Below are positions 6,501 through 60,292 of a stretch of DNA of 64,000 bases, piece after piece. A program made the position numbers and the translations under genes. The notes beneath the pieces are model-generated. The model saw only the letters and a program-made list of their open reading frames with translations. It had not been told where the DNA came from and made no database searches. This DNA is from Desulfococcus multivorans (lineage in GTDB: Bacteria > Desulfobacterota > Desulfobacteria > Desulfobacterales > Desulfococcaceae). How positions within the stretch are numbered: the stretch's first letter is position 1; each line of letters begins with the position of its first letter. The stretch covers positions 3,631,001 through 3,695,000 of the forward strand of contig NZ_CP015381.1 in assembly GCF_001854245.1 (NCBI RefSeq), in the 5' to 3' direction.

Positions 6501-7750
6501 CCGGATTCCGCGTCGAGCACCAGTGCCCCCAGTGCGGGGCACCGGCATGCCTTGGGGAGGCGGACCGGATCTTTACCTGCGACTACTGCCGAACGGCCTC
6601 CTACCTGGTGCCCCGGGATCATTTCCGTTACATGCTGCCCCACACGGCTCCGGAAGGAACGTGTCTTGTCTATGTCCCCTATTGGCGGTGTCGCGGCATG
6701 TTCTTCTCGTGTACGGCGGCGACCGTCCGGCAGCGTGTGGCGGACCATACCCAGCCGGCCGTTTCCGTTCCCCGCCTTCCCGAGAGCCTGGGGTTGAGAA
6801 GCCAGGTCATGACGCTGCGGCCGGCCGCGGCCCATGACGGGGCGCGATTTCTCGTCCCTTCGGTCTCCCCCGCCGCGGCGGTCTCCCGTTTCAACACCCG
6901 CTTCCAAGCCGTCTTTACGGAATCCGCCGCCGTGACGGCCCTTATCGGCGAAACCCTCACCCTCATCTACGCGCCCTTCTATGCCCTGGGCGACACCCTG
7001 ATGGACGGGGTTCTGAACCGCCCGGCGGCGCCGGGCCATCGGGTCGGGGGCGATCTGAACGACATCCCGACGGAAGCCCCGGACGGGTCGATCCGGTTTG
7101 TACCGACTTTGTGTCCCAACTGCGGATGGGACATGGCGGCGGAGAAGGCGGCCGTCTTCCTGTCCTGCCCCCAATGCCGGTCCCTTTGGCGGGCCGGTCG
7201 AAACGGCCTGACCCGGATGAGATGTGCGTTTCTTGCCGATGCCGAATCGGCGGCACGGCATTATTTCCCGTTCTGGCGGATCACGGCGACCATTTCAGGG
7301 ATCCCCCTGTCGTCCTACGCCGACTTCGTGCGGCAGGCCAACCTGCCCCGGGTGATTCAACAGGATTGGGACAAGAGACCGTTTCACTTCTGGGTGCCCG
7401 CATTCAGCCTCTCGCCCCAGGCTTTTTTACAGACCGCCCGCACCATGACAACGGCCCAGCCCGAGGCGTCGGTCAACCCCGGCATCCCCGACGGCGGGCT
7501 CATTCCCGTCAATCTTCCCGCCGCCGGCGCGGTCGCGGCCCTCAAGGTCCTCACGGCGGCGCTCCTGCGCCCGAAAAATCGCATCATCCCCAGGCTGGAG
7601 GGCACGTCCGTAACACCCACGGCGGCACTGCCGGTCTACGTGCCGTTCCGGGAGACCCCCCATGAATACGTCCATTCCCGCTGCGCGCTCTCCATCAACC
7701 GGAACATGCTCCGGTTGATCCGGCGTACTCAGGGAAGCGGCATATCATAA
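6497..7750 (+). CDS. Zinc-ribbon protein coupled to SPFH gene
   Basis: This 417-residue protein starts at GTG 6497, inside the last codons of the SPFH gene (GTG overlaps its TGA), which indicates translational coupling. Two CxxC pairs are visible: CPQCGAP with CDYC near residues 8-30, resembling a TFIIB-like zinc ribbon, and CPNCGWD with CPQC near residues 205-230. Between them lie beta-rich segments with repeated YFPFWR/YVPYWR-type motifs (VYVPYWRCRGMFFS; HYFPFWRITATIS). There is no signal peptide, so it is cytosolic. The arrangement suggests it works with the SPFH scaffold, but no enzymatic motif is seen and the function is unknown. Confidence 0.75.
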   Translation: MTGFRVEHQCPQCGAPACLGEADRIFTCDYCRTASYLVPRDHFRYMLPHTAPEGTCLVYVPYWRCRGMFFSCTAATVRQRVADHTQPAVSVPRLPESLGLRSQVMTLRPAAAHDGARFLVPSVSPAAAVSRFNTRFQAVFTESAAVTALIGETLTLIYAPFYALGDTLMDGVLNRPAAPGHRVGGDLNDIPTEAPDGSIRFVPTLCPNCGWDMAAEKAAVFLSCPQCRSLWRAGRNGLTRMRCAFLADAESAARHYFPFWRITATISGIPLSSYADFVRQANLPRVIQQDWDKRPFHFWVPAFSLSPQAFLQTARTMTTAQPEASVNPGIPDGGLIPVNLPAAGAVAALKVLTAALLRPKNRIIPRLEGTSVTPTAALPVYVPFRETPHEYVHSRCALSINRNMLRLIRRTQGSGIS

Positions 7751-40412: not shown

Positions 40413-41108
40413 TCAGGCGGGTATATCCTGACGCTTTTTAATGACCGTTGCCGGGTTACCCGCGGCAATACTATCAGGAGGGATATCCCGGGTAACTAAA
40501 GATCCGGCACCAACGACCGCATTCTCTCCGATGGTCACGCCGCTCGTTACAATAACCCCCACCCCCAGCCAGGCGCCGTCTCCGATAACGATCGGCCCCT
40601 TGCTTTCAAGCGGCTGATCAACGATGAGCATGCCGGGTTTCACGCCGTGATTATAGGAGTAGAGGCAGCAATAGGGGGCCAGCATGACATGTTTGCCGAT
40701 GTGAATCGATGAATGAAAGGCATTGATCTGACATCTGGGGTGGATACTGGCCTTCTCATCGATGAACAGGCTTCCCCCTGTTCCGGTTTCCATGAAAACC
40801 TGGCGGAACACCTTGACTTCATCCGCCAGCACCATTTTCCCCGTGCCCTGCCTTTTGAAAAGGATGCATCCGTCATCGATAAACACGTGCCTGCCAAGGG
40901 TGAGTTCATCATGGTCGACGATTACGGAAGGCGCAATGTATCCGCTGTCGGCCAGGTATGCCAATCTCACTCTGGATTTGTGCGGCGCCGTGAACAGGGC
41001 CGCCATTCTCATGGCAAAACGGCCGAAGGGATTCAAACCGCCGCTTCGGATCCAGAATTTCGTCCAGAGCCGCACAATTCTGTAGTCCGGTCTGTAAAAA
41101 GGTTTCAT
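40413..41108 (-). CDS. Hexapeptide-repeat acyltransferase
   Basis: A 231-residue left-handed beta-helix protein of the maltose/galactoside O-acetyltransferase-like type. Hexad repeats: LTLGRHVFIDDGCILFKR, GSLFIDEKASIHPRCQI, SIHIGKHVMLAPYCCLYSYNHGV and PIVIGDGAWLGVGVIVTSGVTIGENAVVGAGSLVT. The candidate catalytic His is in SYNHGV. C-terminal IPPDSIAAGNPATVIKKR is typical. The first 50 residues are a non-repeat cap. It likely acetylates a sugar in polymer synthesis and is a second acyltransferase besides the one at 29396-29953. Confidence 0.85.
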   Translation of the reverse strand: MKPFYRPDYRIVRLWTKFWIRSGGLNPFGRFAMRMAALFTAPHKSRVRLAYLADSGYIAPSVIVDHDELTLGRHVFIDDGCILFKRQGTGKMVLADEVKVFRQVFMETGTGGSLFIDEKASIHPRCQINAFHSSIHIGKHVMLAPYCCLYSYNHGVKPGMLIVDQPLESKGPIVIGDGAWLGVGVIVTSGVTIGENAVVGAGSLVTRDIPPDSIAAGNPATVIKKRQDIPA

Positions 41109-41145: not shown

Positions 41146-42090
41146 TCAGTCGCCTTTATGTCCTCGATCGGCAGGGAAACTCAACGCCAACGGCATCAGG
41201 CCGGAAAATGTCTTGACGACCTTTATTTTCTGGTATGCACTGAAGGCGATCATCAGTACCGCTGCGCCGATGGTCACGGCGGCATCGACCCACGTGATGC
41301 CGCTTGTTCGATATAGAGAACAGGCAGGAACAAGCAACAGCATCATCGGGAGGATATGGCCGACAAAGACCGTTTTCATGCCGTATATCGGAGAAAACGG
41401 TGCCGGGTAACGGTTGCGGGAATAGGCCGTTATCACGTATCGAATGTGGCTGATCCATAAGCCGGCGTTGATGATCGCGCAGGAAAGGATCAGCACGGCG
41501 ATGAAGATGTACCCCGGGCCCGCTGCCTCCGGAAACCCCACGCTCGCCGTGAGGAAACCCGCACCGCCGTACAGACCGGCGGAAATCAAAAGCCACGGCA
41601 GACGGTTATGACGCCACGCGGATACGGCCTTTCCCTGATAGGGCATGAACCCCTGGCTGACCAGAAAGCCGGCGGCCGACAGCACGGCAAGGCCTTCCAG
41701 GACACCATGCGGCCAAATATAATTTGCAGCGGCGGAAAAAATAAATAAAAGTCCGGAAAGGGCTTCACGAGACACCCAGGATTCTTTTATATTATTAAAC
41801 AAATACAGCGCATTATACATCCTGTTCGTTTTCAGCGCCAGGGGTATGAACCCGATGGCCGCCATACCGGCGCATATCACCGGATAGAGCGGACGGGAAT
41901 CCCCGTCGGCAATGCCTGGGACAGCGATCGCTGCCGACATGACCAGATACCAGCCGGCTGCCGCCCCCCCCAGCACGAAATTCAGCGCAGCGGGAAATCC
42001 CCACGCCGTCTGATTGCTCCTCTGGACCACATTCAGGCTTTTCAATCCTTCTCTCCCGGAGATGCCTGCTCGCAATATGCCGACCACCAT
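41146..42090 (-). CDS. DmsC/NrfD-like membrane anchor subunit
   Basis: A polytopic membrane protein of about 314 residues (eight hydrophobic segments, for example ALNFVLGGAAAGWYLVMSAA, GLLFIFSAAANYIWP, GFLTASVGF). It has the character of DmsC/PsrC/NrfD anchors, which hold a ferredoxin subunit and exchange electrons with quinone. ATG 42090 overlaps the ferredoxin gene by 48 bp; the homology-like part starts near WGFPAALNFVLGG, so a later start is possible. It is encoded directly after the four-cluster ferredoxin. No molybdopterin catalytic subunit lies beside it; the GMC flavoprotein upstream is the only nearby candidate partner. Confidence 0.65.
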   Translation of the reverse strand: MVVGILRAGISGREGLKSLNVVQRSNQTAWGFPAALNFVLGGAAAGWYLVMSAAIAVPGIADGDSRPLYPVICAGMAAIGFIPLALKTNRMYNALYLFNNIKESWVSREALSGLLFIFSAAANYIWPHGVLEGLAVLSAAGFLVSQGFMPYQGKAVSAWRHNRLPWLLISAGLYGGAGFLTASVGFPEAAGPGYIFIAVLILSCAIINAGLWISHIRYVITAYSRNRYPAPFSPIYGMKTVFVGHILPMMLLLVPACSLYRTSGITWVDAAVTIGAAVLMIAFSAYQKIKVVKTFSGLMPLALSFPADRGHKGD

Positions 42091-42728
42091 TCAGGAACGA
42101 TGAAAAAAACAGCCGGCCCCGTCGACATCTGCACCTGCATCTGCGTTGTTAAGTTGTCCCGGATCAGATGGTTTATCCTGCTGTCCGGGTCATCGAGATC
42201 TCCAAAGTGCAGGGCGCCTGAACTGCACGTCGCGACACACATCGGCGTTGCCGCCTCATCTTCGCCCGGCGTCAACCCCTTTCCGAGCCCCTCGTCAATA
42301 CGGGTGTGACAAAAGGTGCATTTCGTACAGAGCCCTTTTTTGTCGATTCTCGACCGAACGTCGGAGCCCATCAACTCGCTTTCACCGACAACGACATTGT
42401 CCGCCTTCAAAACGGTCCGCGCCCCATAGGGGCAGGCAAGAACACATGAGCCGCATCCCACGCATTTGTCATGGTCTATCAGGACGATCCCGTCCGATCT
42501 GATGTAGGATGCCGTTGTGGGGCATACCATCACACAAGGCGGATCATCACAGTGCATGCAACTCTGATGGACGAATAAACGCTGCCGGTCCGAAACCGGA
42601 TTGTCGGCGCAATCGATCACCCGTCGCCACCTGTTTCCATGGACATGATGAAATTCACTGCAAGCGGTTACACACGACTCGCACCCGATACATTTTCTCA
42701 AATCAACAACCATTCCCCATCGCGGCAT
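42042..42728 (-). CDS. Four-cluster 4Fe-4S ferredoxin subunit (DmsB-like)
   Basis: A 228-residue electron-transfer protein. Four cysteine sets are visible: CIGCESCVTAC (residues 13-23), CMHCDDPPCVMVCP, CVGCGSCVLACP (near residue 89) and CTKCTFCHTR with a late CVATC. This is the DmsB/NrfC-type arrangement with four cubane clusters. It has no Tat signal, so it is on the cytoplasmic side. Its gene overlaps the anchor gene and follows the GMC oxidoreductase after the heptad-repeat hairpin. Electron donor and acceptor are unknown. Confidence 0.85.
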   Translation of the reverse strand: MPRWGMVVDLRKCIGCESCVTACSEFHHVHGNRWRRVIDCADNPVSDRQRLFVHQSCMHCDDPPCVMVCPTTASYIRSDGIVLIDHDKCVGCGSCVLACPYGARTVLKADNVVVGESELMGSDVRSRIDKKGLCTKCTFCHTRIDEGLGKGLTPGEDEAATPMCVATCSSGALHFGDLDDPDSRINHLIRDNLTTQMQVQMSTGPAVFFIVPEWWSAYCEQASPGEKD

Positions 42729-42780
42729 AACATGTCTCCCGTAATTGATCGGATACCTCGGCTTTCGGCGTTATCAGAGG

Positions 42781-42850
42781 GTCAGGCTCAAGACTGAAGT
42801 GGTGATGTCGTAACGAATGCGGCCCTTATCCCCCTTCAGTCTTCAGCCTA
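42781..42850 (-). repeat. Heptad-repeat hairpin, copy 3
   Basis: The left arm is GTCAGGCTCAAGACTGAAGTGG and its inverted partner CCCCCTTCAGTCTTCAGCCTA is at 42830-42850. The spacer differs more than in copies 2 and 4 but keeps GTCGTAACGAATGCGG against GTCYGYRACGAACGG. It lies 5 bp after the stop of the GMC gene and before the ferredoxin gene. Confidence 0.7.
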
Positions 42851-42855
42851 TCCCG

Positions 42856-44499
42856 TTACAGCTTTTTCACATGGTCGGCCAGACGCACGGCCAGGGCCAC
42901 GGTGGTCACGACAGGGTTCGCATACCCGCTCGTCGGGAAAACCGAGGCGCCGGCGATATACAGGTTCGATATGCCGTGAACACGGCAATCTTTGTCCACC
43001 ACGCCCTTTTTGGGATCCACGTGCATGCGGGTGGTCCCCATGTGGTGCCATCCGCCGCGCAGGAACCGAGGGGTTTCCCCTTCCTTCATCTCGATGATGA
43101 GCCGGCCAAGGCCCTTCTTTTTCAACGCGTCGCTCAGTATCTCCTGCGTTCTGATCATGCTCTTCAGATCCTGGGGCATCAACTCCCATTTCAGCTTGAT
43201 GCGATTCATGCCGAAGGCGTCCTTCTCCTCATCCAGCAAAACCCGGCTTTCCGGATTGGGGACCTGTTCTGCCATATGATTCAAGCGATACACGACCATG
43301 CGTTCACCGGCGACATATTCCTTCAAAAAACGGTTCGTAAAGTGCCGGTAGGACTCCCTGGACAGAGAAGGGATATCTCTTGCGACATCGATCAGCCGGC
43401 TTTTGAGGTTTCGGGGTATTTTTTTCTTTTTCAGATCGTAGACCAGGGATTTTCCCGAATAATAGCCTTTTGACCAGCTCCGTTTATAATAGGCCTTGCT
43501 TCTGTTGAAGTCCGGAGCGATGTGTATCGAGTGATTCAACAGACGCTCCCTTCGTTTAACGGCGTCATTCAATGCCAGCTTTCCCATGATGGTCACACCG
43601 TTGACCTGGTGCATGCCGTAAAAGGCGAGCGCATGGGACATTTCCACATCGGCCGGGATGAAGGCTCCGGAAGTCAGGTGGGGATGCTCCATGAAAAACC
43701 GCCCCACCAGGTCATTGCCGTTTCCCAGGCCCGCCTTTTGAACGTGATTCGAGGCCAGCAGCAACCGGGGGACTTCGATACCGCCCGCCGCCAGGATGTA
43801 GGTCCTGGCCTTGACGTTGAAACGGGGTCCGTTCAGGCATGCCGCCTGGAGCGCTGTAACGACCTGTGCATTATCGTCAACAGCGATGTTGACGCAATTG
43901 GCATGGGTAAAGACCCTTATATTTTCTGAACGATCAAGGGCATCTCGGTAGGTCTTGAAAAAAACTTCGCGATCGCCGAACTGAAACACCGTCGTTTCGA
44001 ATTCTTCTCCCGTTAGGCGGGGCTGCCGCCGTTGATCCTCCGATGACATCCAGTCTGCCGGATCATAACTGTAGGGTCCGATCCGGCATATTTGGTGAGC
44101 CCTTCGATAGAAGGGTTCCAGGTGGGATATATCAAAGGGCCACCCGCTGTAAGGCACCCAGTCACGCGCTTCGAAATCGATGGGATCGAGCCCCCTCAAC
44201 CGGACACCCAGCCTGTTGTCGCCGATGGGGATGTGCCAGAAATGGCTTGTTCCGCCAAAAAACCGGGCCCTGGATTTATCCAGTTCGAAATACGGAAATC
44301 CGATATTTTTTCCCCAATTCAGGGATTGCGTTACTCTGTCGGCTTCGATGCCGCCGCTCTCCAGCAGACATACCCTGTACCCGGCGTCGATGTATTCCAT
44401 CGCAAATGAAATTCCCGCCACGCCTGCTCCGACCACGCAGATATCCGTCTCGATGGTAGAGTCCGGAGACAGTTCAAATGCGTTGATTAACATGGGCAA
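42856..44499 (-). CDS. GMC-family FAD-dependent oxidoreductase
   Basis: A 547-residue GMC oxidoreductase. CVVGAGVAGIS is the FAD-binding loop (24-29), ILAAGGIEVPRLLLAS is the second FAD segment, and GWHHMGTTRM with H485/H486 plus N528 in ANPVVTTVALAVRLAD is the active-site His-Asn pair of the family, as in pyranose 2-oxidase. Typical substrates are sugars or alcohols. In an anaerobe it would need an electron acceptor other than oxygen; the ferredoxin and membrane anchor encoded next may be that partner. There is no signal peptide, so it acts on cytoplasmic substrates, perhaps a nucleotide sugar or lipid-linked sugar. Confidence 0.85.
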   Translation of the reverse strand: MPMLINAFELSPDSTIETDICVVGAGVAGISFAMEYIDAGYRVCLLESGGIEADRVTQSLNWGKNIGFPYFELDKSRARFFGGTSHFWHIPIGDNRLGVRLRGLDPIDFEARDWVPYSGWPFDISHLEPFYRRAHQICRIGPYSYDPADWMSSEDQRRQPRLTGEEFETTVFQFGDREVFFKTYRDALDRSENIRVFTHANCVNIAVDDNAQVVTALQAACLNGPRFNVKARTYILAAGGIEVPRLLLASNHVQKAGLGNGNDLVGRFFMEHPHLTSGAFIPADVEMSHALAFYGMHQVNGVTIMGKLALNDAVKRRERLLNHSIHIAPDFNRSKAYYKRSWSKGYYSGKSLVYDLKKKKIPRNLKSRLIDVARDIPSLSRESYRHFTNRFLKEYVAGERMVVYRLNHMAEQVPNPESRVLLDEEKDAFGMNRIKLKWELMPQDLKSMIRTQEILSDALKKKGLGRLIIEMKEGETPRFLRGGWHHMGTTRMHVDPKKGVVDKDCRVHGISNLYIAGASVFPTSGYANPVVTTVALAVRLADHVKKL

Positions 44500-44762: not shown

Positions 44763-46019
44763 TCACAGGATCCTGCCATAGATGCTGCGAAAGGTTCTGC
44801 CGAAGACGCTGTGCAGGTGCTTCCGGTCGACGGTCGCCAGGGGTCCCATGGTTCTCGACGTCCATTCCTCAACCTTTTTCCGCTTTTCGAATTCATCGAT
44901 TTTGACCTGGACCACCTTCAGAAGGTCCTCCCGGCCGATCCGTCTCAGCGGTTCAAACAACTCCCGATACATGGGCAGATTGTTGGGTCTTACGATTACC
45001 GAGGCTTCGACCCGCGCCGTAGTGACATTATTTTCCGCGAAGGCCCCCGAACGATCCAGCACGCCGCAGCAGAGCATGGCCAGCATGGTTCTGACGCATT
45101 TCTCGCAAACGCCGCAGTTGAGGATCTCCTGCTGATAGGTTCGAGAGTCGTTGCACACCCTCAGGTTGTCGATAGCGACCTGCCAATCGGAAATGATCCG
45201 CGTCTTTTCATACCGGGAAAAATTGATGCCCTCGTGCCGGATGCGCAGATCCGCACTGCTGTAATACGGGTTGACAAGAGGGTGCGAGCTGTAGGGAATC
45301 AGATTCGGGATGTCGTGACAGGAATTGATGGAGAAAAGGGAAAACCGTCCGGACAGGGCGTGGATCGCCGCCCCGAAGGTGGCGCCCATGTATTGTTTGA
45401 GCCAGAAATCCGCCCAGAAGGTCCGGTCGTTTTCAGGACCCAGTTCCCGAATGTTCGTATAGAGCGGTGTCATTCGGATGTCGGCGTCGGCGGCGATCAC
45501 CTCGAGATGTCTCAACACATGGTTGAAGCTGACGTCGTTCTGCACCTCCAGGCCGTAAATGATCAGGCCGTCGAGAATCCGGGCCGGGTGGCCCGAAGGA
45601 TAGTTCAGGTGATTGTGCCGAAGGGTCGCCAGGGAGTCGACACCCCCGGAAAAAAGGAATCCGGCGCGCGACGTTCCTTCGGCCGCGGCAGGTCTCATAC
45701 CGGCGGTCGCGATGGGGATGGGCTTTCGCCTCCCCGGATAGAACCAGTGAACGATCCAATGGAGGGCGACATCGATGTTTTCCAGCAGCTGCGGGCAGAC
45801 CGGTCCGTCGACCCAGATCCTTTTTTCTCCAAAGTGCATGGCGGGCAGGGCGCCGGCGATCAGGAAGGCATGGGGATCCGGCACCAGGCCCTCGGCATAT
45901 GCCGTCGGGGTTTCGAAATAAAGCGTTTGCGCGGGATGGTCGTTCTCTTCCCAGATCAAACGGGCGGAAACGCGCTTGCGGCCGTTGATATCGGTCGAAG
46001 TGAAGTCTTGTATTTTCAT
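44763..46019 (-). CDS. QueC-like PP-loop ATPase, copy A
   Basis: A 418-residue protein. The PP-loop SGGVDSL begins at residue 124, typical of adenylating ATP-pyrophosphatases. A cysteine set C289, C302, C305 and C308 (RVC...NCGVCEKCVRT) matches the zinc-binding C-x(n)-CGxCxxC site of QueC, the deazaguanine synthase. The N-terminal ~115 residues are a separate domain that I do not recognise. QueC itself is about 230 residues, so this is not QueC but likely uses the same chemistry, activating a carboxylate with ATP. A paralogue follows. The substrate is unknown; an amide or ligation step on a sugar or amino sugar is a hypothesis. Confidence 0.65.
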   Translation of the reverse strand: MKIQDFTSTDINGRKRVSARLIWEENDHPAQTLYFETPTAYAEGLVPDPHAFLIAGALPAMHFGEKRIWVDGPVCPQLLENIDVALHWIVHWFYPGRRKPIPIATAGMRPAAAEGTSRAGFLFSGGVDSLATLRHNHLNYPSGHPARILDGLIIYGLEVQNDVSFNHVLRHLEVIAADADIRMTPLYTNIRELGPENDRTFWADFWLKQYMGATFGAAIHALSGRFSLFSINSCHDIPNLIPYSSHPLVNPYYSSADLRIRHEGINFSRYEKTRIISDWQVAIDNLRVCNDSRTYQQEILNCGVCEKCVRTMLAMLCCGVLDRSGAFAENNVTTARVEASVIVRPNNLPMYRELFEPLRRIGREDLLKVVQVKIDEFEKRKKVEEWTSRTMGPLATVDRKHLHSVFGRTFRSIYGRIL

Positions 46020-46053
46020 GAACGGGCTCCCATGATTTCTTTAGATCAACGGC

Positions 46054-47307
46054 TCATTTCAGATGATTGACGGCCCGGCTTCCCGTCAGGCGTTTTTTGA
46101 GACGGCTGAGTCCGCCGTGCAAAACGGTTTTATCCGTTTTCCTGACAAGGTCCATGGGGGTCATGGCCCGGCCCAGGGCCCGACCCAGGGAAATTCTGAG
46201 AGAGGCGGCCAGGTCCCGACGGCCCGAGTGGGCAAGCGCATCGATCAGTTCGCGGTAATCGTCGGCCAGTCCCGGTTTGAACCGGATGTTTTCAATGTCG
46301 GCCACGGTCATATCGTTCTTCGGAAACGAACGGGTTTTGTCCAGCGCGCCGACAGCCGTGAGGGCCAGCATGGTTCGCAGGCATTTTTCACACTGCCCGC
46401 AATTTTCGCCGGGCCAGTTGGGTTGACAGACGCGAATGTTGTTGAGGGCAACAGGCCACTGGGCCACCAACCGCGTCTTCTCCAGGCGCCCCGAGGTCAT
46501 GCCGACGTGACGGATTCTCAGACGCCAGCTGCTGTAGTAGGGATCGATGAGGGGGTGGGAGCCGAACGGCTTGAACGTGTCCCGTTTCACGAGCGCGAGC
46601 CCCGGAATGCTGTCGCTGGCGGAAATGGACACGGAATCGACGCGCCCCGATACGATATGGGAGACGGCTCCCAGAATCGCGCCGTGGAAAACATCGACAA
46701 AAAACCGCGTCGCGTCGTCCAATTCTCGCAGATTGGTGTAAACCGGGAGGAGAGAGATGCCGGATTCGCGCGTCACCTCGGACAGGGCGGCCATCGCCTT
46801 TTCGAAGGTTTCCGGCCGATGGTCCGACTCTGGGTTCTGGCCGTAAATCAGTATGCCGTCCCTGAAAAAACCGGAATGGGATTCGGGATACCGGGAATGA
46901 TTCTCCCGCAGGGCCGCCAGGGAATCGATGCCCCCGGAAAAAAAGAGGGCCGAGCGCGACACGGCGGGTCGGGGCGATGGTCGCTCTTCCACGTCGGCCT
47001 CGATCTGGACCCCGGAACGGTAGGCCTCGTGCCACAGGCCCATGAACCCCATCACGGTGTGGAGACCGTCGCGAAGCTCCGGGCAAATGGCTCCGTCGAT
47101 CCGCAGTCGCCTTTCACCGTGATGCAAGGCCGGGAGAAGGCAGCCCACCGCATAGGCGGCGGCTCCGGAATCCAGGGCGTCGGCAAACCGATCGAGGGTG
47201 GCGAAATAAATTTCCTGACGCGGCCTGGGGGAATCCTCCCAGGTGACGACGGCCTTGACGGCCGGTTTTCCGTTGTGTTCTTCCAGACGAATGTTTTCGA
47301 CTTTCAT
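46054..47307 (-). CDS. QueC-like PP-loop ATPase, copy B
   Basis: A 417-residue paralogue of the preceding protein with the same architecture: an unrecognised N-terminal domain, PP-loop SGGIDSL at residue 124, and C294, C303, C306, C309 in RVCQ...NCGQCEKCLRT. The C-x8-C-x2-C-x2-C spacing is exactly that of QueC zinc sites. The two copies are clearly homologous along the full length but differ in loops, so they may form a heterodimer or act on different substrates. It sits between the ATP-grasp gene and copy A, 34 bp away. No other queuosine genes are present, so tRNA modification is unlikely. Confidence 0.65.
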   Translation of the reverse strand: MKVENIRLEEHNGKPAVKAVVTWEDSPRPRQEIYFATLDRFADALDSGAAAYAVGCLLPALHHGERRLRIDGAICPELRDGLHTVMGFMGLWHEAYRSGVQIEADVEERPSPRPAVSRSALFFSGGIDSLAALRENHSRYPESHSGFFRDGILIYGQNPESDHRPETFEKAMAALSEVTRESGISLLPVYTNLRELDDATRFFVDVFHGAILGAVSHIVSGRVDSVSISASDSIPGLALVKRDTFKPFGSHPLIDPYYSSWRLRIRHVGMTSGRLEKTRLVAQWPVALNNIRVCQPNWPGENCGQCEKCLRTMLALTAVGALDKTRSFPKNDMTVADIENIRFKPGLADDYRELIDALAHSGRRDLAASLRISLGRALGRAMTPMDLVRKTDKTVLHGGLSRLKKRLTGSRAVNHLK

Positions 47308-47352
47308 ATCACCTGCCGTATCATAATTGATTCAACTTCCGGTATTCATGGG

Positions 47353-47384
47353 GCGGCCCGGAAACGCACTTGCGTCCGGGCCGC
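47353..47384 (-). terminator. Hairpin upstream of QueC-like gene B
   Basis: A perfect 10-bp stem, GCGGCCCGGA/TCCGGGCCGC with a 12-nt loop, immediately next to the heptad-repeat hairpin. It lies after the ATP-grasp gene and 46 bp before the start of the QueC-like gene B. No T-run follows on the minus strand, so it may stall or protect the transcript rather than terminate it. Confidence 0.5.
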
Positions 47385-47385
47385 T

Positions 47386-47494
47386 GAGGTTGAAGGCTGA
47401 AGGCTAAAGGCTGAAGGGGTGCGTCCGCAACGAACGGAGCGTTGATGCCCCTTCAGTCTTCAGTCTTCAGCCTTCAGCCTTTAACTTTCAGCCT
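47386..47494 (-). repeat. Heptad-repeat hairpin, copy 4 (longest)
   Basis: The left arm (47386-47418) is GAGGTTGAAGGCTGAAGG-like; the right arm (47448-47494) carries CCCCTTCAGTCTTCAGTCTT followed by more heptads and ends in GCCTC. The spacer TGCGTCCGCAACGAACGGAG is almost the same as in copy 2. The right arm supplies the TGA stop codon (47488-47490) of the ATP-grasp gene, so the element overlaps that gene's end. Confidence 0.75.
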
Positions 47495-48813
47495 CTTTGC
47501 CGTTTCATGTGCGCCAGGTAGACCCGGGGAAAGGGCGTTTCCCCAAGGGGGGTTTCATGGGCCATCTGCATCGCCTCCACCCCCCAGAAGAGATTTCCCT
47601 CCACCAGCATCGGCCCATCGTCCGTAATGGCGACGTCCCAGCCGATGAACGCGTAATCCTTGAAGACCCGATGTGCCTCGCGGCACAACGCGAGGGTTTC
47701 CGCCCAGAAGGGCAGCTGAAATCCGTTCACCCGCTTTTGGGTGTCGGGATGGACATCCCATCGCGTCGTCGGTTCCGCACCCACGACGCCCCTGCCGAGC
47801 ACGCCTGTTTCCAGGTCGATGGAAACCGCCATCCCCCCGGTATGGAAATTGTCGGTGCTTCGCCCACGGGCGGCCATCTTGAAAATGGCGCACGGCAGCA
47901 CGCCCTCCGATCCGTCGGGTTCCCGATAGGTCACGATGCGACATGTGGAAAGGGCGTCCCCCACCAGCGCCGCCACGTCGGCATGGTTTAAGATCCGCTC
48001 CTGAAGGATATACGGCGATGACAGGGAGCAGGCCGCAACCCGGGCCATTACGTCTTCCTTTGACAACCGGCGGCCGCTTTCGCTCCGATATCGCCCCGGG
48101 CCGTCGTATCGAAACGCCATAATGCCCGTGCCGCACCTGCCGCCTTCGGGCTTGGCAAACCAGTCCGCATCACGACCGCCGTCGTCGATGAAAGCCGCCT
48201 TTCCATTCTCGAACCGCGCCGCAATGGGTATCGTCCTCAAGCCGGATTGTCGGCATTTTTCAAAAAATGCCGTCTTGTTCTCGAATATACGGTGGTCCGT
48301 ATCCCGGTTGATGCCGTCCAGCAGCCCCAGAATTTCATGATCCTGCACGTAAAGCGACGCCGATGCCGTCCGACCGGGATGGTAAAGCCCGTAATAATAA
48401 TAGGTCCGCGGTCCCATATAAAGCACGTGGGCAAGATAGACGAGGTCCCGGACCTGGCGGGAAAGGGGCACCCCGAACTGTTGTGCGACATGCCTGCCGT
48501 GGCGGGCGACCCGTCTCAGGATGAATATGGGGGAGACGACGGGCCAGAGCAGGGTCGTCAACAGGGCGCGGGTTCTGTTCTTCCGCCAGAGAATCCGGGT
48601 GTGGCACCAGTGGACTGCGGCCATGTGAGCGCTGCTTCGGGCCGCCGGACGCCAGTTCAGGTTCATCCCGCAACATTCATCCCGCAGTATTCCGGCCTGT
48701 GTTTCCCTCAACCGCCGAAAACGGGTCATCACGGCGCGATATGTCCATCGTATCGAGGGCATCTGCAACAGCTGCCGCATCCGGTCTGGAACGGCGCGTG
48801 GTATCGGTCGCAT
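47488..48813 (-). CDS. Sugar-transfer-associated ATP-grasp protein
   Basis: A 441-residue protein of the ATPgrasp_ST type, which joins a carboxylate to an amine or hydroxyl using ATP and is common in polysaccharide loci. FAKPEGGRCGTGIMAFRY is the ATP-clasp with a flexible glycine loop (near residue 225), followed by ILQERILNH, GVLPCAIFKMA and AFIGWDVAITDDGPMLVEGNLFWG, whose D, E and N are the metal ligands. The N-terminal ~110 residues form a helical region. The stop is inside the heptad-repeat hairpin. It precedes the two QueC-like genes, so ATP-dependent modification of a sugar is likely; the substrate is unknown. Confidence 0.8.
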   Translation of the reverse strand: MRPIPRAVPDRMRQLLQMPSIRWTYRAVMTRFRRLRETQAGILRDECCGMNLNWRPAARSSAHMAAVHWCHTRILWRKNRTRALLTTLLWPVVSPIFILRRVARHGRHVAQQFGVPLSRQVRDLVYLAHVLYMGPRTYYYYGLYHPGRTASASLYVQDHEILGLLDGINRDTDHRIFENKTAFFEKCRQSGLRTIPIAARFENGKAAFIDDGGRDADWFAKPEGGRCGTGIMAFRYDGPGRYRSESGRRLSKEDVMARVAACSLSSPYILQERILNHADVAALVGDALSTCRIVTYREPDGSEGVLPCAIFKMAARGRSTDNFHTGGMAVSIDLETGVLGRGVVGAEPTTRWDVHPDTQKRVNGFQLPFWAETLALCREAHRVFKDYAFIGWDVAITDDGPMLVEGNLFWGVEAMQMAHETPLGETPFPRVYLAHMKRQRG

Positions 48814-48819
48814 CCCGAA

Positions 48820-50190
48820 TCATCCCTCCACGGCCATATGGGAGAAATCCATTCCGTCTCCGCCCGGCCGGTATTCGGTCGTCCACTTCAACAGGGGGCG
48901 GACAACGCCGCGAATTTCCCTGGCATAATCCCCCCGAGCCGAATCGCCATCGAGATTGTCGTAAACACTGAAGGCGATGGCGTTTTTTTCACTGAACATC
49001 ACGGCATCGGGATTCAGGGAAAGACAATTCACGCTGATATAGATCATCCCCTCGGACAGCAGGTTGCCCGGAATCAGCGCCGTACTCACGTATGTCCCGG
49101 CCGGGCGCGGCCGTTTCCGCCACTCGGGATCCTGGTCCAGGGTCAGGAAGGCACACACCCCCTCCCGGTTCTTCACGGTGAAATGGGGCATCAGGACACG
49201 GCCGGAGGCGTACACGTCAAAGGTCATCTCGAGACGGATCGGTTTGCGGATATCGAAGGCTTCAAGAACCTCGCGGTTTTCATTGCATGCCCTGACACCG
49301 CGAAGCCGGACGACATCATTCCCCGGGGCTTTCTCCACATCGGGCCAATGCCTCGCCGAAGTCACCCCGAGGTTGGAATTGAGATACGCGCCCACAACCT
49401 CGCTGGCGGATCCCGAATTCACGATCCTTCCGCCCTCGAGCAGCAGGGCCTTTGTACACAGCCGCGTCACCGCCGCCATGTTGTGGGACACGAAAAGGAC
49501 CGTTCGCCCTTCCTGGCCGATGCTCTCCATCTTGTTGAGGCATTTGGCCTGGAAATCGGCATCTCCCACGGCGAGCACCTCGTCGATGATCAGCAGTTCC
49601 GGTTCGAGATGGGCCGCCACCGAAAAGGCGAGCCGGACCTTCATGCCGCTGGAATAGCGCTTGACCGGGGTGTCGATGAATTTTTCCACACCTGAAAACT
49701 GGACGATCTCGTCGAACTTCTCCTCGATTTCCCGCCGCCTCATCCCCAGGATCGTCCCGTTGAGAAAGATGTTGTCCCTGCCGGTGAGTTCGGGATGGAA
49801 GCCGGTCCCCACCTCCAGAAGGCTCGAAATTCTTCCCCGGATCTCCGCGTACCCAATGGTGGGGTCCGTAATCCGGGCCAAAATCTTGAGCAGGGTCGAC
49901 TTGCCCGCGCCGTTCCGGCCGATCAAGCCGAGAACCTCTCCCGGCGCCACCTGGAACGAGACCCCTTTCACGGCCCAGAGGATATCCGGAGACGCCTGCT
50001 CCTCCGCGTCGAAATCGATGTCGGCCACGCCGCCTTTGAACCGGTACAGCGACCGGTATTTCCTGAAGTTGTAAAAAGGGCTGACCAGCATGCGCAGGAT
50101 TTCTCCGCCAACCGTGTCCTGGCGTTTTTCTTTCAGGCCGATGCGATAGCGCTTGCTGATGTTATCGACCCTGATTGCCGGTTCCGTCAT
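48820..50190 (-). CDS. ABC polysaccharide exporter ATPase (Wzt-like)
   Basis: A 456-residue Wzt-type ATPase. Walker A is GRNGAGKSTLLK (near residue 95), the signature is YSSGMKVRLAF, Walker B is LLIIDEVLAVGD and the H-loop is FVSHNMAAV. Residues about 275-440 form a C-terminal carbohydrate-binding Wzt_C-like domain, which in O9-type systems recognises the modified end of the polymer. It pairs with the permease at 50249-51070, 58 bp away. The export substrate is probably the locus polymer. Confidence 0.9.
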   Translation of the reverse strand: MTEPAIRVDNISKRYRIGLKEKRQDTVGGEILRMLVSPFYNFRKYRSLYRFKGGVADIDFDAEEQASPDILWAVKGVSFQVAPGEVLGLIGRNGAGKSTLLKILARITDPTIGYAEIRGRISSLLEVGTGFHPELTGRDNIFLNGTILGMRRREIEEKFDEIVQFSGVEKFIDTPVKRYSSGMKVRLAFSVAAHLEPELLIIDEVLAVGDADFQAKCLNKMESIGQEGRTVLFVSHNMAAVTRLCTKALLLEGGRIVNSGSASEVVGAYLNSNLGVTSARHWPDVEKAPGNDVVRLRGVRACNENREVLEAFDIRKPIRLEMTFDVYASGRVLMPHFTVKNREGVCAFLTLDQDPEWRKRPRPAGTYVSTALIPGNLLSEGMIYISVNCLSLNPDAVMFSEKNAIAFSVYDNLDGDSARGDYAREIRGVVRPLLKWTTEYRPGGDGMDFSHMAVEG

Positions 50191-50248: not shown

Positions 50249-51070
50249 TCATATTACGTCCGCAAAGATACGCTCCATCCGCTTGAAGTACAGTCCCCCG
50301 GTCACGAAAACCAGGGCCGCGGTGAGCATCCCCGGCCATATATAGGCCCACGGCATGGGCGTCCCCAGAAGCGCCGCCCGGAATCCCTCGATGACGCCCA
50401 CGATGGGATTGAGGGAATAGATGAGCCGGTATTTATCGGGTATGGAGGCCGCCGAGTAGACAATGGGCGCGGTATAGATCAGCATTTTCATGACAAAGGG
50501 CATGGCGTACTTGAAATCCCGGTATCGGATGGCAAAGGAGGAGAGCCACATGCCGACGCCGGAGGCCACCATGACCATGAACACGAGGAAAACGGGAAAA
50601 TAGAGGAGATTCCAGGTGGGCGTCACGCGATACCAGAACATGACACAGGAGAGCAGCAGGATGGATATCGTGAAATCCACCAGCCGGGCGAAGGCCGGCG
50701 CCAGCGGAAAGATCAGACGCGGAAAATAGACCTTTCCGAGCATGCTCTGGCCCTGTACGAGGCTCTGGCTCGATTGGGTCATGGCCTCCTGCATATAGGT
50801 CCACGGGATGACGGCGACACTCGAGAACAGGGCATACGGAATGCCCTCGGTGGGCACCTCCGCCACCCGCCCGAACACCACCGAAAAGACGACGATCTGA
50901 ATCAGCGGATTCAGGATGGCCCATGCGAACCCCAGAATCGTCTGGGCGTACATCACCTTGATGTCCCGCAGAACAAGAAAGTAGAACAGATCCCAGTACT
51001 CCCTGAGTTCCCCGAGATCGATCACCTGCCAACCCGATCTCGCCTTGATATAGGTAATACGATTGGTCAT
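50249..51070 (-). CDS. ABC polysaccharide exporter permease (Wzm-like)
   Basis: A 273-residue inner-membrane permease with about six hydrophobic segments (DLFYFLVLRDIKVMYAQTILGFAWAILNPLIQIVVFSVVFG, LLSCVMFWYRVTPTWNLLYFPVF, YSLNPIVGVIEGFRAAL). LRDIKVMYAQTILGFAWAILNPL is the hallmark of ABC-2-type polysaccharide permeases. It works with the adjacent Wzt-like ATPase. A GGGAG site precedes ATG 51070, and two hairpins lie upstream. Confidence 0.9.
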   Translation of the reverse strand: MTNRITYIKARSGWQVIDLGELREYWDLFYFLVLRDIKVMYAQTILGFAWAILNPLIQIVVFSVVFGRVAEVPTEGIPYALFSSVAVIPWTYMQEAMTQSSQSLVQGQSMLGKVYFPRLIFPLAPAFARLVDFTISILLLSCVMFWYRVTPTWNLLYFPVFLVFMVMVASGVGMWLSSFAIRYRDFKYAMPFVMKMLIYTAPIVYSAASIPDKYRLIYSLNPIVGVIEGFRAALLGTPMPWAYIWPGMLTAALVFVTGGLYFKRMERIFADVI

Positions 51071-51990: not shown

Positions 51991-54900
51991 TTACCACTGT
52001 TCCGAGGGCGGTTTCGTAAAATCGTAGTAATCATAATAGGGCTCGATCGCCTGAATGATCTCCCAGAGTTCGTAGTCGCTGGCGCCGTTGACATAGGCCG
52101 TCAGGTATGCCGCTACGGCATATTCGCCGTCCGACGTGGATTTGAGGGAGTAGAAGAAGACTCCCCGCTGGAACGTGTCGGTATAGTAGTGGCCGCTGTC
52201 GCATCCGGAATAGAACAATCGGGCGTATTTCATCTCCGACTTGGGAACCGCCAATGCCTTCCGCTTCACCAGGGTCTTGTAGCCGTAATGCCGCTTGGGA
52301 TAATCGACATTGTCGAGGAAACGCGCGTCCGAAGGATTGTCCGCAGGCTCGATCATTACGCCGTCGGCGACCACGTTCCCGTCGGCGTTGTCCTTCAACA
52401 CCACCGAGTAGGCATTGATCCCGAATCGGAACGTGCCGATCCTGTTCCACTTTCCACCGTTGGTCCGCTGATTCACCGTCACCGTCGTACTCCCGTCCGC
52501 ATGATTGACGGTATAGGGCGCATTGGAGGCATTGCCCGACGCGGCGGGGTACCAGACATAGACGTTGTAGTTCCCGGACCTGGTGGTCCTGAACATCCAT
52601 CTCGCCGTGTCGGCGCCGGTGCCGGGCGACGAATACTCGTAGTTTTCCTGATAGAAGTTCGAGAGGGTGTCGGTGTCCACCCAATTCCCGACGCGCTCGA
52701 AAGAGGGCGACCAGGGTTCGGGATTGGTGATGTAGTACATGTCGTGGTTCGGGTTGTCAGGGTCGGGAGTGTCCCCGTCGGGATCGTACCATGCCGGGCC
52801 GTCCCAGTCCGCGAAGCGCTCGATGGCGCCGTTCTTGACCGTCTCGATCTTGTAATGAGTCGGATCGCCGGGGATCTGGTAGGTGGGATAGTAGTTATAG
52901 GCCGGATCGCCGTTGGGATCCCCCTTCACGTAAGGCGCAAGGGCGCTGGTCCCATCCTTGTACACCGGCCACCAATGGGGATACGCCTGGCCGGTTCGCA
53001 TGCCGCTGACACTGAGGTTGACGATGGGCGAAGAGAGATTCAGAATCCGGTCGTCATCCACATACCGAATGTCCTGAATCACCTGATCCCTGAACTCCTG
53101 GCTGGTGGCGAACACCTGGCCGCTGCCGTAATTGGAATGGCCGAAATACAGCACATGGGCATCCTGCGTCTTGAGGGCGGTGGCAAACTGCGCCGTTGTC
53201 GTGACGGGATGCATCACGTACCGCTTGTTCCGCGCCGTGTTGACGTAGGTCCAGACGCCGTTGGCGTATGTCGCCCCCATGTTCTGGAGGGTCGTGTTCA
53301 TCAGGCCCATCGCGTTCACCGAGGCGTAGGCGGGTGCAAAAAAGATATGCTCCGTCGTCTGCACCCGGGTGTCGCTGACCTCCACCTTCGACTGGATCTC
53401 CGAAGACCAGAGACCTGAATTGTCCCGAACCTTGAAGAATATCGTGTGCACCCCTTCGGAGAGGGATGACGTGGTGAAGGTCGCCTGGCTGCTCAGGGGG
53501 CCGTCGAGAGTGGAATACCAGCTGTAGGCGACGATGCTGCCGCCGATGTCGGTTCCCGATCCCGAAAATGTCACCGCCTGACCGGGCAGGGCGGTGGTGG
53601 GGCTGATCTCGTGGATCACCGCACTGGGAGTGGTGCCGCTGACGACCGTGAGGGTCGCCGTATTGCTGGTGACGCTGCCCGCGCTGTTGGTCACCCCGCA
53701 CCGGAACTTGGCGTTGTTGTCCGAAAGGACCACGGCCGGGGTGGTGTAGGTGCTCCCGACGGCGCCCGAAATGTTGACGCCGTTTTTCTGCCACTGATAG
53801 CCGAGGGGCGCCGCGCCCGTCGCCGTAACACTGAAGGTCGCCTTTCCGCCCACCACCGCACTCTGGTTGGCCGGCTGCGTCGTGATGACGGGGGCCGTCG
53901 CGGACGACGTAACCGTCAAGGTCGCCGCGTTGCTGGTGACGCTGCCGGCACTGTTGGTCACCACGCACCGGAACTGGGCGTTGTTGTCCGTCAAAGTCAC
54001 GGCCGGCGTGGTGTAGGTGCTCCCGGCGGCGCCTGAAATATTCGCGCCGTTTTTCTGCCATTGGTAGGTCAGAGGCGCCGTACCCATCGCCGCAACGCTG
54101 AAGGTCGCCGTCGAACCCACCACTGCGCTCCGGCTGACAGGCTGCGTCGTAATGACGGGTGCCGTGGACGTGCCGCCGGAAACGGCGCGCACCTCGATAG
54201 CCGATATCTTGGCATTGTCCACCGATGCGGCGAACTGGATGTCGAGGCTGCCGTCCGTCACCAGGATCTCGCCGAAACGCTTGACCAGCGCCGTGTTCGG
54301 CCCCGTCTCCGCCACGATATCGAGATTGTCGAGGCTGCCCTGGCCGTTCTCCACATCCACGTCGAACACCCGGGATCCCGCGGTGGTGAAATAGAGCTCC
54401 GCAAAATGCAGGTCAACGGCATAGATCCCCGGCGCCACCGGCAGGCTGTAGCCCATCGCTTTACCGAACCGCTCCGTCTGGTACAGCACGTCGTCAACCG
54501 TCCCGGCGATGGCCTTGACGGCGCTGTAGGTGCGTGTCGAACCGGTGTAATACTGATCCGCGCTCCAGGCGACACCGCTCGTGGTCACGGCGGATCCCCC
54601 GCCGTTGATGCGATGGACCGCTTCCCCGCCGCTCGACGTGACCGTCAAGGTCGCGGCGTTGCTGGTGACGCTGCCCGCGCTGTTGCTTACCACGCACCGG
54701 AACTGGGCGTTGTTGTCCGTCAAAATCACCGCCGGCGTGGTATAGCTGCTCCCGGCGGCGCCTATAATATTGGCGCCGTTTTTCTGCCATTGGTAGGTCA
54801 GAGGCGCCGTGCCCGTCGCCGTCACGCTGAAAGTCGCCGTCGCCCCCTCCGTCACGCTACGGCTTACAGGCTGCGTCGTGATGACGGGTGCCGTGGACGT

Positions 54901-58806: not shown

Positions 58807-58914
58807 TTCAACTTCCTTTCCCAATAATGCGTTCAGACCCGATCCCATGACGTCTCCGAATCGGATACGGCGTGACCATCACGGTGTTGTCATCCATCCC
58901 AAAATTACAATCTC

Positions 58915-59008: not shown

Positions 59009-60292
59009 TCATGAACCGGGAAAACAGGCATCCTGTTCACGCCGCAGTTTGTCACACAAGCGGCCTTCCGGAATTTCGACATCCTCATAGGCGATGGTGC
59101 GGTCCCTGAGGATATCCCGTTTGAGCCGGCAGCCTTCGGAAAGCCCCATCGGCAGCAGATTCTCTCCCCGCTGAATCGCGGCATTCTCGATCATGCCGTA
59201 GGCGGTGAATCCGCCGATGCCGTCCAGCACCTCGCCCGCTTTCAGATCCTTTTTCGCCACGGTGATCACCTCGCAGACGGGACCGGCAAGGGGTGTCACG
59301 GCCGCATCCTGAAAGAGCACCGCCCGTGCCGCCGTCAGATGAACCTCCAGATGAGGAAGGTGATACGGCACATAAAAGGCATAAAGCGGTCCGTCCCCCA
59401 TCTTGAAATACCGCATGTACCCCCGGCGGACGGGGTCGTCGTTGTAGCCGAGAACGAAAACGCCGGGGCCGGGCTCGGCCCCCAGGATATAATCGACCAG
59501 ACCCGTCTCCCGCATCTTGTCCAGCGGAAAGAGGTTGACCGCCTCCCGGACGTGATCGCAGCGGGGGCCGTACATCCCGCGACGACCGACCCTGAAGCCC
59601 GTGGCATTGGCGACGACGGCGTTCTCCATCGATATCTTGGTGCCGTCGGCGAAGGACGTGGCCATCTTCGGACTGATATGGTGCTCCGCCGCGAACGCCT
59701 TCTGAGTTTCGGGGGTTCGGTAATAATCCTGAAGCCCCTTGATGTTCCCTGCCAGCACCGGGTTGTAGCCGATGGATTTCACGAAGCGGAACAGGTTCAT
59801 CATCACTCCGGGCTGGTCCCCGTCGGCATTGGTGATGACCACGCCGGCCCGATCCGCATAGACCTTCAGGATGGGGCCCACGGTGGCATCCAGCTCCGCG
59901 TTCATCAATACGACGTGTTTGCGGTGTTCGATCGCCGCCAGGACGACCTCGGCGCTGAAGGCCACATCCCCGGTCGCCTCGATGATCACGTCGATGCCGT
60001 CGGCCTTGCAGACCAGCATCGGATCCTCGGTGATCACATACCGTCCCCTGGAAACGGCGTCCTCCACCTCGGCGACGCTTTCGGCCGTAATCGCCTCACG
60101 TCCGGCATCCTGATAAGCCTGACGCGCTTTGGACAGGGTTCTGTTGGATATGGCCGCAAGCCGCATGCCGTCGACGTATTGTTCGATCTGAAGCGCGACT
60201 CCCCGGCCGATATACCCCGCGCCGATCACGGCGACCCGAACGGGATTGTTCTCTGCCTCACGTTTTGCCAGAGCGGTGTCTACAATAATCAT
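59009..60292 (-). CDS. NAD(P)-dependent homoserine-dehydrogenase-like oxidoreductase (SAF-type)
   Basis: A 427-residue protein with a Rossmann fold at VRVAVIGAGYIGRGVALQIEQ (about 18-38), a dehydrogenase-like middle (VIIEATGDVAFSAEVVLAAIEHRKHVVLMNAELDATVGPIL) and a C-terminal SAF-like region (VAKKDLKAGEVLDGIGGFTAYGMIENA). Similar proteins are annotated as homoserine-dehydrogenase or DRL-like enzymes and often sit among sugar genes, so the substrate is probably not homoserine. It overlaps the nucleotidyltransferase gene by 4 bp (ATGA), hence one operon, and it likely acts on a nucleotide sugar made by its neighbours. Substrate unknown. Confidence 0.75.
   Translation of the reverse strand: MIIVDTALAKREAENNPVRVAVIGAGYIGRGVALQIEQYVDGMRLAAISNRTLSKARQAYQDAGREAITAESVAEVEDAVSRGRYVITEDPMLVCKADGIDVIIEATGDVAFSAEVVLAAIEHRKHVVLMNAELDATVGPILKVYADRAGVVITNADGDQPGVMMNLFRFVKSIGYNPVLAGNIKGLQDYYRTPETQKAFAAEHHISPKMATSFADGTKISMENAVVANATGFRVGRRGMYGPRCDHVREAVNLFPLDKMRETGLVDYILGAEPGPGVFVLGYNDDPVRRGYMRYFKMGDGPLYAFYVPYHLPHLEVHLTAARAVLFQDAAVTPLAGPVCEVITVAKKDLKAGEVLDGIGGFTAYGMIENAAIQRGENLLPMGLSEGCRLKRDILRDRTIAYEDVEIPEGRLCDKLRREQDACFPGS

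Follow-up and report, generated by a model that had tools for sequence, protein, structure and literature searches.

Work on the QueC scaffold has so far concerned nucleobase synthesis and, more recently, phage defence (PMC13279940). According to the account given there, QueC uses ATP to activate a carboxylate and accepts ammonia in the next step, the acceptor in Cap9 is a protein N-terminus, and the reaction of QatC is an open question; the nucleobase is read by a Tyr/Asp pair in QueC and Cap9, in whose place QatC has two threonines (PMC13279940). A survey of the Pfam family PF06508 describes QueC, QatC, Cap9, LarE, WbpG, GMPS and a PfkB-linked cluster, leaving three archaeal clusters unanalysed (PMC13329287). 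Here we compare with these systems two neighbouring genes, A and B, which encode QueC-like proteins in a polysaccharide locus of Desulfococcus multivorans, within a stretch of 64,000 nucleotides (the window; contig NZ_CP015381.1, positions 3,631,001 to 3,695,000). Coordinates without further label are those of the window; compared loci carry L-numbers and genomes G-numbers, G000 being the window's own genome. Our analysis suggests that A and B may be ATP-pyrophosphatases of the QueC/QatC group that form an amide on a carboxylate of a glycan, a statement to which, taken whole and with its reaction and substrate, we give slightly less than an even chance.

Two divergent members of a QueC/QatC-like family

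The pair and the N-terminal domain of B are encoded as follows:

44763..46019, minus strand: QueC-like copy A, 418 residues, with an N-terminal domain, an SGGVDS PP-loop and the cysteine pattern C-x12-C-x2-C-x2-C
46054..47307, minus strand: QueC-like copy B, 417 residues, with an N-terminal domain, an SGGIDS PP-loop and the cysteine pattern C-x8-C-x2-C-x2-C
46972..47307, minus strand: residues 1-112 of B, forming its N-terminal domain, in which close relatives conserve W92, C75-P76 and E65

Both reading frames are open and full length, with 34 bases between them, and their products are 35% identical across 429 columns (E 2e-87 in a single pairwise comparison). At E ≤ 0.001 they are the sole copies in the 4.46 Mb genome. 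The cysteines follow the order C289-x12-C302-x2-C305-x2-C308 in A and C294-x8-C303-x2-C306-x2-C309 in B. The original prediction for this DNA, made by a model, had named two full-length paralogues with SGG(V/I)DS PP-loops, zinc-type cysteine patterns including C-x8-C-x2-C-x2-C in B, and an unrecognised N-terminal domain of about 115 residues; the coordinates, loops and patterns are correct, and the domain, of about 112 residues, matches no Pfam or NCBIfam family.

How far are these motifs conserved? A scan of the genome_contigs collection seeded with HPL[VI][ND]PYY and NCG[VQ]CEKC yielded 103 relatives and 80 loci that were kept (L003-L082), in which the conservation of CGxCEKC is partly by construction, as this stretch had served as a seed. 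A second set, of 49 different relatives without either seed peptide, was gathered by searching whole genomes. All 49 retain S124, G125, G126, D128 and the four cysteines, which argues against chance as the source of the PP-loop and cysteine conservation. W92, N192 and P252 are likewise found in 49/49, S129 in 48/49 and H251 in 45/49. The N-terminal domain further contains C75-P76, numbered in B, where cysteine is present in 47 of the 49 close relatives; across a broader alignment of 66 relatives, which includes A and B, the same position is occupied by serine in 33, cysteine in 20 and aspartate in 10.

Up to E 0.1, A matches no Pfam or NCBIfam family and B a single one, DUF6395, whose E of 0.045 lies below the cut-off; neither the QueC model PF06508 nor the NCBIfam model of WbpG-type N-acetyl sugar amidotransferases matches A or B in this range. 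Among the 66 relatives, DUF6395 is matched by 5 and PF06508 by 4 at E ≤ 0.01 (best PF06508 E 7.6e-5), and the WbpG type is not among the six NCBIfam families listed for them. An Asn_synthase domain is matched by neither A nor B and by one of the 66 relatives (E 0.0016). Sequence searches against PDB chains returned nothing for A and one chance match for B (E 1.5), and a profile of the 66 relatives picked up NAD synthetase, GMP synthetase, MnmA, QatC and LarE at E 0.045 or worse only. PADLOC gave no match for B; for the 66 members, A included, three of its families, each of them Cas8e or Csn2, are matched by a single member (E 0.002-0.009). Nor does the family appear among the clusters that the PF06508 survey describes (PMC13329287), A and B also being without a match to that Pfam model. 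A and B belong to a widespread family for which no description was found in the open-licence literature searched.

The kinship becomes apparent in structural comparison. An AlphaFold2 model of B, which alone of the two was modelled, has a predicted local distance difference test score (pLDDT) of 91.7 and a predicted TM-score of 0.88, and shows the ATP-pyrophosphatase fold that had been anticipated, with QatC and QueC as its best matches. In a Foldseek search of the PDB, the first match is B. subtilis QueC (probability 1.00, E 4.6e-3). Alignment of the Foldseek top 1000 with VIA-align 2 places QatC 9y01_B in front (Z 15.2, root-mean-square deviation 4.8, 300 aligned residues, spanning model residues 1-370), followed by 9y02_B (Z 13.5); QueC 3bl5 (Z 11.9, 176 aligned residues) covers the core only, Cap9 9nto_B reaches Z 11.6, and LarE, MnmA and other thiolases match the core only, with Z about 9-10. 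When profiles are compared with each other, the 66 relatives align with 14 QatC over 279 columns (probability 95.5%, E 1.3e-8) and with 18 canonical QueC over just 35 columns in the cysteine region (81%, E 1.2e-5), the match between QatC and QueC being stronger (98.6%, E 5.3e-16). Judged by the predicted fold and these profiles, the family therefore branches off as an outlier within the QueC group and is most similar to QatC in architecture.

What does the active site reveal about the substrate? The YPDC motif, found in 18/18 canonical QueC, is absent from the family, a pattern search for Y[PS]DC giving 0/66 relatives. In QatC, T277, T279, H281 and P282 are invariant in 14 sequences, and this T-x-T-x-H-P motif is not present in the sequence of A or B. 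A conserved HP lies between the PP-loop and the cysteines in the A/B family as well as in QatC, preceded by P-Y-S-S in A, P-F-G-S in B and T-x-T-x in QatC; the correspondence was drawn by eye, and the profile alignment pairs the residues otherwise. Because YPDC is absent and the active-site residues differ, the substrate of A and B is probably not deazaguanine.

The idea that the pair is the preQ0 synthase of the genome was rejected, as a canonical QueC is present elsewhere, with an adjoining QueD, at 4.25 Mb, at a distance of about 557 kb from the window. Another QueD-type gene lies at 0.66 Mb, so that both are outside the window; the earlier statement that no queuosine genes are near is right for QueC and QueD, queE not having been searched for. 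The QueC model also hits one other place in the genome, marginally, in a 344-residue frame at 2.67 Mb (G000 C1:2666163-2666666; 22.3 bits, cut-off 22).

Genomic settings of the family

On the minus strand, the window's locus begins with an epimerase, a UDP-glucose dehydrogenase-type protein, RmlC, a nucleotidyl transferase, a DRL-type oxidoreductase and a giant protein with Malectin, Golvesin and Ig domains. It continues with a 254-residue protein without family, Wzm, Wzt, an ATPgrasp_ST protein, B, A, a GMC oxidoreductase, a DsrO-like 4Fe-4S protein, an NrfD-related membrane protein, an acetyltransferase-like protein and a DUF5672 protein, with a sulfotransferase and glycosyltransferases further on. 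The genes on which the comparison draws are:

40413..41108, minus strand: acetyltransferase-like protein (labelled by eye), with matches in L004, L157, L187 and L242
41146..42090, minus strand: NrfD-related membrane anchor, matching an L004 protein (5e-39) that itself matches NrfD PF03916 (E 2.1e-8)
42042..42728, minus strand: 4Fe-4S protein resembling DsrO (Fer4_11 E 2.2e-14; DsrO E 4.7e-46, below the cut-off)
42856..44499, minus strand: GMC-family flavoprotein oxidoreductase (GMC_oxred_C E 8.4e-26), 52-57% identical to the GMC proteins of L004, L010 and L157
47488..48813, minus strand: ATPgrasp_ST protein of 441 residues (PF14397 E 3.8e-44, 151.4 bits against a cut-off of 31.4), an occasional partner
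48820..50190, minus strand: Wzt-type ABC transporter ATPase (ABC_tran E 1.9e-21; Wzt_C E 0.0018, below the cut-off)
50249..51070, minus strand: Wzm-type ABC transporter permease (ABC2_membrane E 1.5e-16)
59009..60292, minus strand: DRL-type oxidoreductase upstream of Wzm and Wzt (PF21135 E 7e-52), 57-73% identical in L010, L153, L157, L187, L188 and L242
61640..62992, minus strand: UDP-glucose dehydrogenase-type protein (PF03721 E 3.5e-60), a possible source of uronate

The window's NrfD-related protein itself gave no NrfD match in the Pfam search.

Ten loci hold members of the window's clade and are here called type II: the window, L003, L004, L005, L006, L010, L153, L157, L158 and L242. They span at least three phyla, L003 and L242 belonging to Nitrospirota and L010 to Chloroflexota, with L157 in the phylum of the window; L004 is labelled a deltaproteobacterium in one place and Myxococcota in another. 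The order in L004 (L156 represents this locus from a different source) is Wzm, Wzt, B, A, a sulfotransferase, GMC, FeS (the iron-sulphur protein), NrfD and the acetyltransferase; in L157 it is DRL, Wzm, Wzt, B, CapA, A, GMC, FeS, NrfD, acetyltransferase and DUF5672. L242 runs RmlC, DRL, Wzm/Wzt, a DegT aminotransferase, an A-side copy, GMC, FeS, NrfD and acetyltransferase, and L010 runs RmlC, DRL, Wzm, Wzt, CapA, an A interrupted by undetermined bases, two small genes (one with a weak GNAT match) and GMC. Three further loci are cut by contig ends: L003 (B, A, enolase, histidine phosphatase, A and the start of GMC), L153 (UDP-glucose dehydrogenase, RmlC, nucleotidyl transferase, DRL, another gene, Wzm, Wzt and a truncated QueC-like gene) and L158 (the end of Wzt, A and an M20 peptidase). 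GMC thus lies downstream of the pair or of a lone A in 6/10 type II loci (the window, L003, L004, L010, L157 and L242), the contig stopping within 1.5 kb of the QueC-like gene in the remaining four (L005, L006, L153 and L158). Wzt is found at most one gene upstream in 7/10 (the window, L004, L010, L153, L157, L158 and L242), and the sequence of L003 does not reach that side.

The A/B pair is an optional module between Wzt and a GMC-FeS-NrfD-like cassette. The original prediction had inferred that three ATP-using enzymes, the pair and ATPgrasp_ST, activate and ligate a carboxylate, such as a uronate or amino acid, on the polymer precursor. The ATPgrasp_ST neighbour in a polysaccharide locus with Wzm and Wzt is there, as the table of genes shows, and the link with sugar genes recurs in type II loci and in the broad family described below. 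A constant membership of ATPgrasp_ST is not supported: since the commoner type II partners are Wzm/Wzt and GMC-FeS-NrfD, and since the cassettes of L187 and L188 lack QueC-like genes, the pair is better described as an add-on than as part of one fixed three-enzyme system. Of the two partners proposed for a neighbourhood search, GMC recurs in the six loci listed above and ATPgrasp_ST is occasional. Among 15 compared loci the latter occurs in L243 only, a comparison that led us to drop it as a fixed partner, and an ATP-grasp-like frame is found in just 4/80 collection loci, namely two of type I, one with a marginal match on the opposite strand, and L056. What survives of the ATP-grasp association is the ATPgrasp_ST gene beside the L243 array, a relative of the window's ATP-grasp in L056 (which was part of the model that re-found it in the 80-locus scan, the independent match being separate), and the RimK-type partner in 35/43 type I loci.

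How old is the division into A and B? A tree of 72 rows groups the B copies from the window, L003, L004 and L157 in one clade (100/98) and nine A copies in a second (100/92), both within a 13-row type II clade (100/99); with other sampling, the B clade stays at 100/98 and the A clade drops to 84/81. Every B is accompanied by an A in its locus (4/4). A occurs without B in L005, L006 and L010, for which whole genomes were searched, those of L005 and L006 being possibly incomplete, and in L242. In L243 (8021-16113), which belongs to a separate lineage, four full QueC-like copies of two alternating sub-types are found with fragments of a further copy; the ATPgrasp_ST gene (6144-7298) lies about 0.7 kb upstream of this array, and a 2OG-Fe(II) oxygenase sits mid-array on the other strand. 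More than one copy is present in 12/80 collection loci, the split gene of L010 being excluded, and multiple copies are a habit of the family.

Relatives of either type are found at E ≤ 1e-50 in 45/291 genomes of the window's order and in 8/395 genomes of a sample of the phylum, the window's own genome being included in both counts. The second setting, type I, comprises single QueC-like copies from Desulfobacterota-like genomes, located behind a RimK ATP-grasp and a GNAT protein. Most of the relatives counted above that were placed in the tree fall in its clade of 48 rows (99/100), six pairs of which are identical; Desulfocicer vacuolatum (L007) and an uncultured Desulfobacteraceae (L017) are among its members. 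The RimK-type ATP-grasp gene immediately precedes the QueC-like gene in 35 of the 43 type I loci that have 1 kb or more of upstream sequence, and GNAT is found upstream in 32 of the 34 that have 3.5 kb or more; this count omits L110 and L154, where no QueC-like frame was picked, and L153, which is of type II. Among 24 type I loci with wide flanks, a TLC/HEAT/cNMP transporter-like protein occurs in 19, GshB in 17, a family-5 solute-binding protein in 12, and GMC and ATPgrasp_ST in none. The neighbourhood is seen in L007, L090-L095, L106-L112, L140-L152 and L159-L175, with GNAT proteins of up to about 665 residues, and is a candidate pathway for a glutathione-like or acylated peptide. An 887-residue frame in L110, at one point considered a fusion protein, was dropped, its front part looking by eye like a GC-rich open frame.

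In the broad family, 68 adjacent genes on the same strand (gap below 300 bases, 150-650 residues) were collected from 52 loci. Among the matches listed, which show 25 of 48 families, 21 of these genes encode polysaccharide pyruvyl transferases, 7 GT2, 3 flippases, 3 Asn_synthase and 2 Wzt_C proteins.

Some features of the type II loci deserve mention in their own right. The set of GMC, DsrO-like 4Fe-4S protein and NrfD-related anchor (41146-44499), placed in a polysaccharide locus, is found likewise in L004, L157, L187 and L242; it looks as if a flavoenzyme had replaced the molybdenum subunit of a quinone-linked oxidoreductase. The DRL-type oxidoreductase PF21135, which we take to be a DXP-reductoisomerase-like protein, is encoded just upstream of Wzm/Wzt in six compared loci and suggests an unusual sugar or alditol. 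Upstream of Wzm, the giant proteins of the window (51991-58848, with the Malectin, Golvesin and Ig domains) and of L004 (1354-5691) have a common C-terminal part with GHSNYG and, later, SGC or DSC, motifs that appear caspase-like by eye.

Possible reactions and substrates

What can be discerned about the reaction? A and B would each bind ATP with the PP-loop and transfer AMP to a carboxylate, from which a nitrogen nucleophile, either ammonia or an amine, would displace AMP to yield an amide. The four cysteines would form a structural zinc site, as they do in QueC and QatC. In the window's locus, the target would be the exported polysaccharide or its precursor, the uronate that the window's UDP-glucose dehydrogenase could supply being one candidate substrate. 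Amide formation on a glycan carboxylate is favoured by the combination of QueC-group chemistry, the partner families of type I, in which RimK, GNAT and GshB are, by family, amide- and acyl-forming enzymes, and the polysaccharide settings of type II and the broad family. If correct, an additional enzyme class would put nitrogen on acidic groups of bacterial surface polymers.

Several observations weigh against this reading. Reaction and substrate are ones that we infer for every family member, and QatC's own reaction is, in the published account, open (PMC13279940). No Foldseek match of B in the PDB reaches E 0.001. The N-terminal domain of B modelled alone (pLDDT 96.4), with 63 of the 66 relatives (one being too short and two removed by hand), finds a best Foldseek match of E 0.06, its profile matches QatC with a probability of 0.8%, and VIA-align reaches at best Z 5.3 with an RNase H/integrase-like arrangement, on which we do not rely, QatC not being among the matches listed. 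The structure search proposed with the prediction hence supports a QatC/QueC-like fold for whole B and finds no convincing relative for its N-terminal domain, so that the kinship of this domain with that of QatC is drawn from whole-protein alignments. On the genomic side, glycan models match 0/46 type I loci and 38/73 broad-family loci, a difference inflated by the models having been built from the broad set itself (the count of adjacent genes is free of this bias); it is therefore unlikely that all members act on a single common sugar. The cyanobacterial loci L005 and L006 have A and, within the available stretch, no Wzm, Wzt or GMC. UDP-glucose dehydrogenase occurs among the 15 compared loci only in L153, L187 and L188 and was not found in the available stretches of L003, L004, L010, L157 and L242, which weakens the uronate proposal. 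L187 and L188 share the order DRL-Wzm-Wzt-GMC-FeS with Wzt directly before GMC, and their genomes, 85% and 97% complete, have no QueC-like match at E ≤ 1e-50. At E ≤ 1e-120, a GMC relative is present in 7/291 genomes of the window's order, three with the pair (the window's, G555 and G564) and four without, namely L187 and L188 and two with more distant GMC genes in other settings (L189 and L190).

The two copies might also divide the work, acting successively on one carboxylate, for example to form first an amide and then a nitrile, or together as a heteromer with one mainly structural copy. The old separation of the two types and their retention together, B coming with A in each of its four loci, would fit such an arrangement, as would the alternating sub-types in the separate lineage of L243, and there is a precedent in the asparagine-synthetase-like nitrile synthetase PesC, described as leading from acid through amide to nitrile in two ATP-dependent steps, with ToyM/QueC named as its forerunner (PMC13060819). 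Yet both copies keep PP-loop and cysteines, so that neither looks dead, and the presence of A without B in L005, L006, L010 and L242 implies that A may work alone; we regard paired chemistry as unlikely. Somewhat less likely still is a modification in the manner proposed for QatC, in which A and B would couple a small acid, either a deazaguanine or some other carboxylate, to a partner protein at its N-terminus and thereby switch this protein on, a component of polymer synthesis or export being one example. QatC is indeed the best structural match over most of B, defence proteins of the QueC group act on protein N-termini, as shown for Cap9 and proposed for QatC (PMC13279940), and QueC and QueD are present elsewhere in the genome. 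Against this stand the YPDC motif, lacking in all 66 relatives and present in all 18 canonical QueC, the missing T-x-T-x-H-P in A and B, and a genome without a match to the QatC model NF041925 at E 1e-5; a small partner gene with an N-terminal glycine was not noticed beside the pair, no dedicated search having been made.

Finally, the PP-loop could activate a carboxylate or carbonyl for sulphur or another nucleophile, with thiolation as in LarE-type enzymes. The thiolases among the core matches of B and, more speculatively, the conserved C75-P76 as a sulphur carrier would speak for it, but the four-cysteine pattern is that of QueC rather than the three-cysteine Fe-S set of LarE in the survey's description (PMC13329287), and C75 is replaced by serine in 33/66 broader relatives, which makes this a very improbable explanation.

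Our preferred proposal of amide formation on glycans invites a wider one, which we consider doubtful as a joint statement: that a QueC/QatC branch makes amide or nitrile bonds on exported glycans via an old heteromeric A/B pair, and that its type I sister branch, with GNAT, RimK-type ATP-grasp and glutathione synthetase, makes a glutathione-like peptide. The reaction of QatC would then be one case of a broader amide-forming family that began in metabolism. A large family of QatC architecture in polysaccharide loci and a peptide-type operon would provide new substrates for testing, and could help to clarify the function of QatC-like enzymes.

Relation to known systems

QatC, of the qatABCD anti-phage system (NF041925; 9y01), shares with A and B an N-terminal domain, a QueC core with C-terminal helices, a PP-loop and four cysteines, but it has 19 residues after the first cysteine, compared with 8 in B and 12 in A, and it alone has T-x-T before HP. 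A and B, unlike QatC, are set among polysaccharide genes in a genome where NF041925 has no match at E ≤ 1e-5 (19/297 searched genomes do match); where the qat operon has qatA, qatB and qatD, their neighbours are an ABC transporter, ATPgrasp_ST, GMC and FeS proteins, QatB having no Pfam model to search with according to the survey (PMC13329287). QueC (PF06508) has in common with the pair the PP-loop ATPase core and with B the spacing C-x8-C-x2-C-x2-C (PMC13329287), from which the x12 spacing of A departs; the extra N- and C-terminal parts, the absence of YPDC and the lack of a Pfam match set A and B apart. Cap9 of type IV CBASS has a QueC-type core resembling that of B (Z 11.6), but is described as a minimal core of about 185 residues that retains the nucleobase residues (PMC13329287). 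The WbpG-type N-acetyl sugar amidotransferases are likewise PP-loop proteins of polysaccharide loci, with a different cysteine pattern, CxxC(x)6CxC (PMC13329287). Differing in fold, and comparable at most with the ATPgrasp_ST neighbour, is Cj1438C, an ATP-grasp domain protein and amidoligase; it nonetheless parallels the role proposed here for A and B, in that it is described as forming an amide, ATP-dependently, on the glucuronate of the Campylobacter jejuni capsule (PMC11800379).

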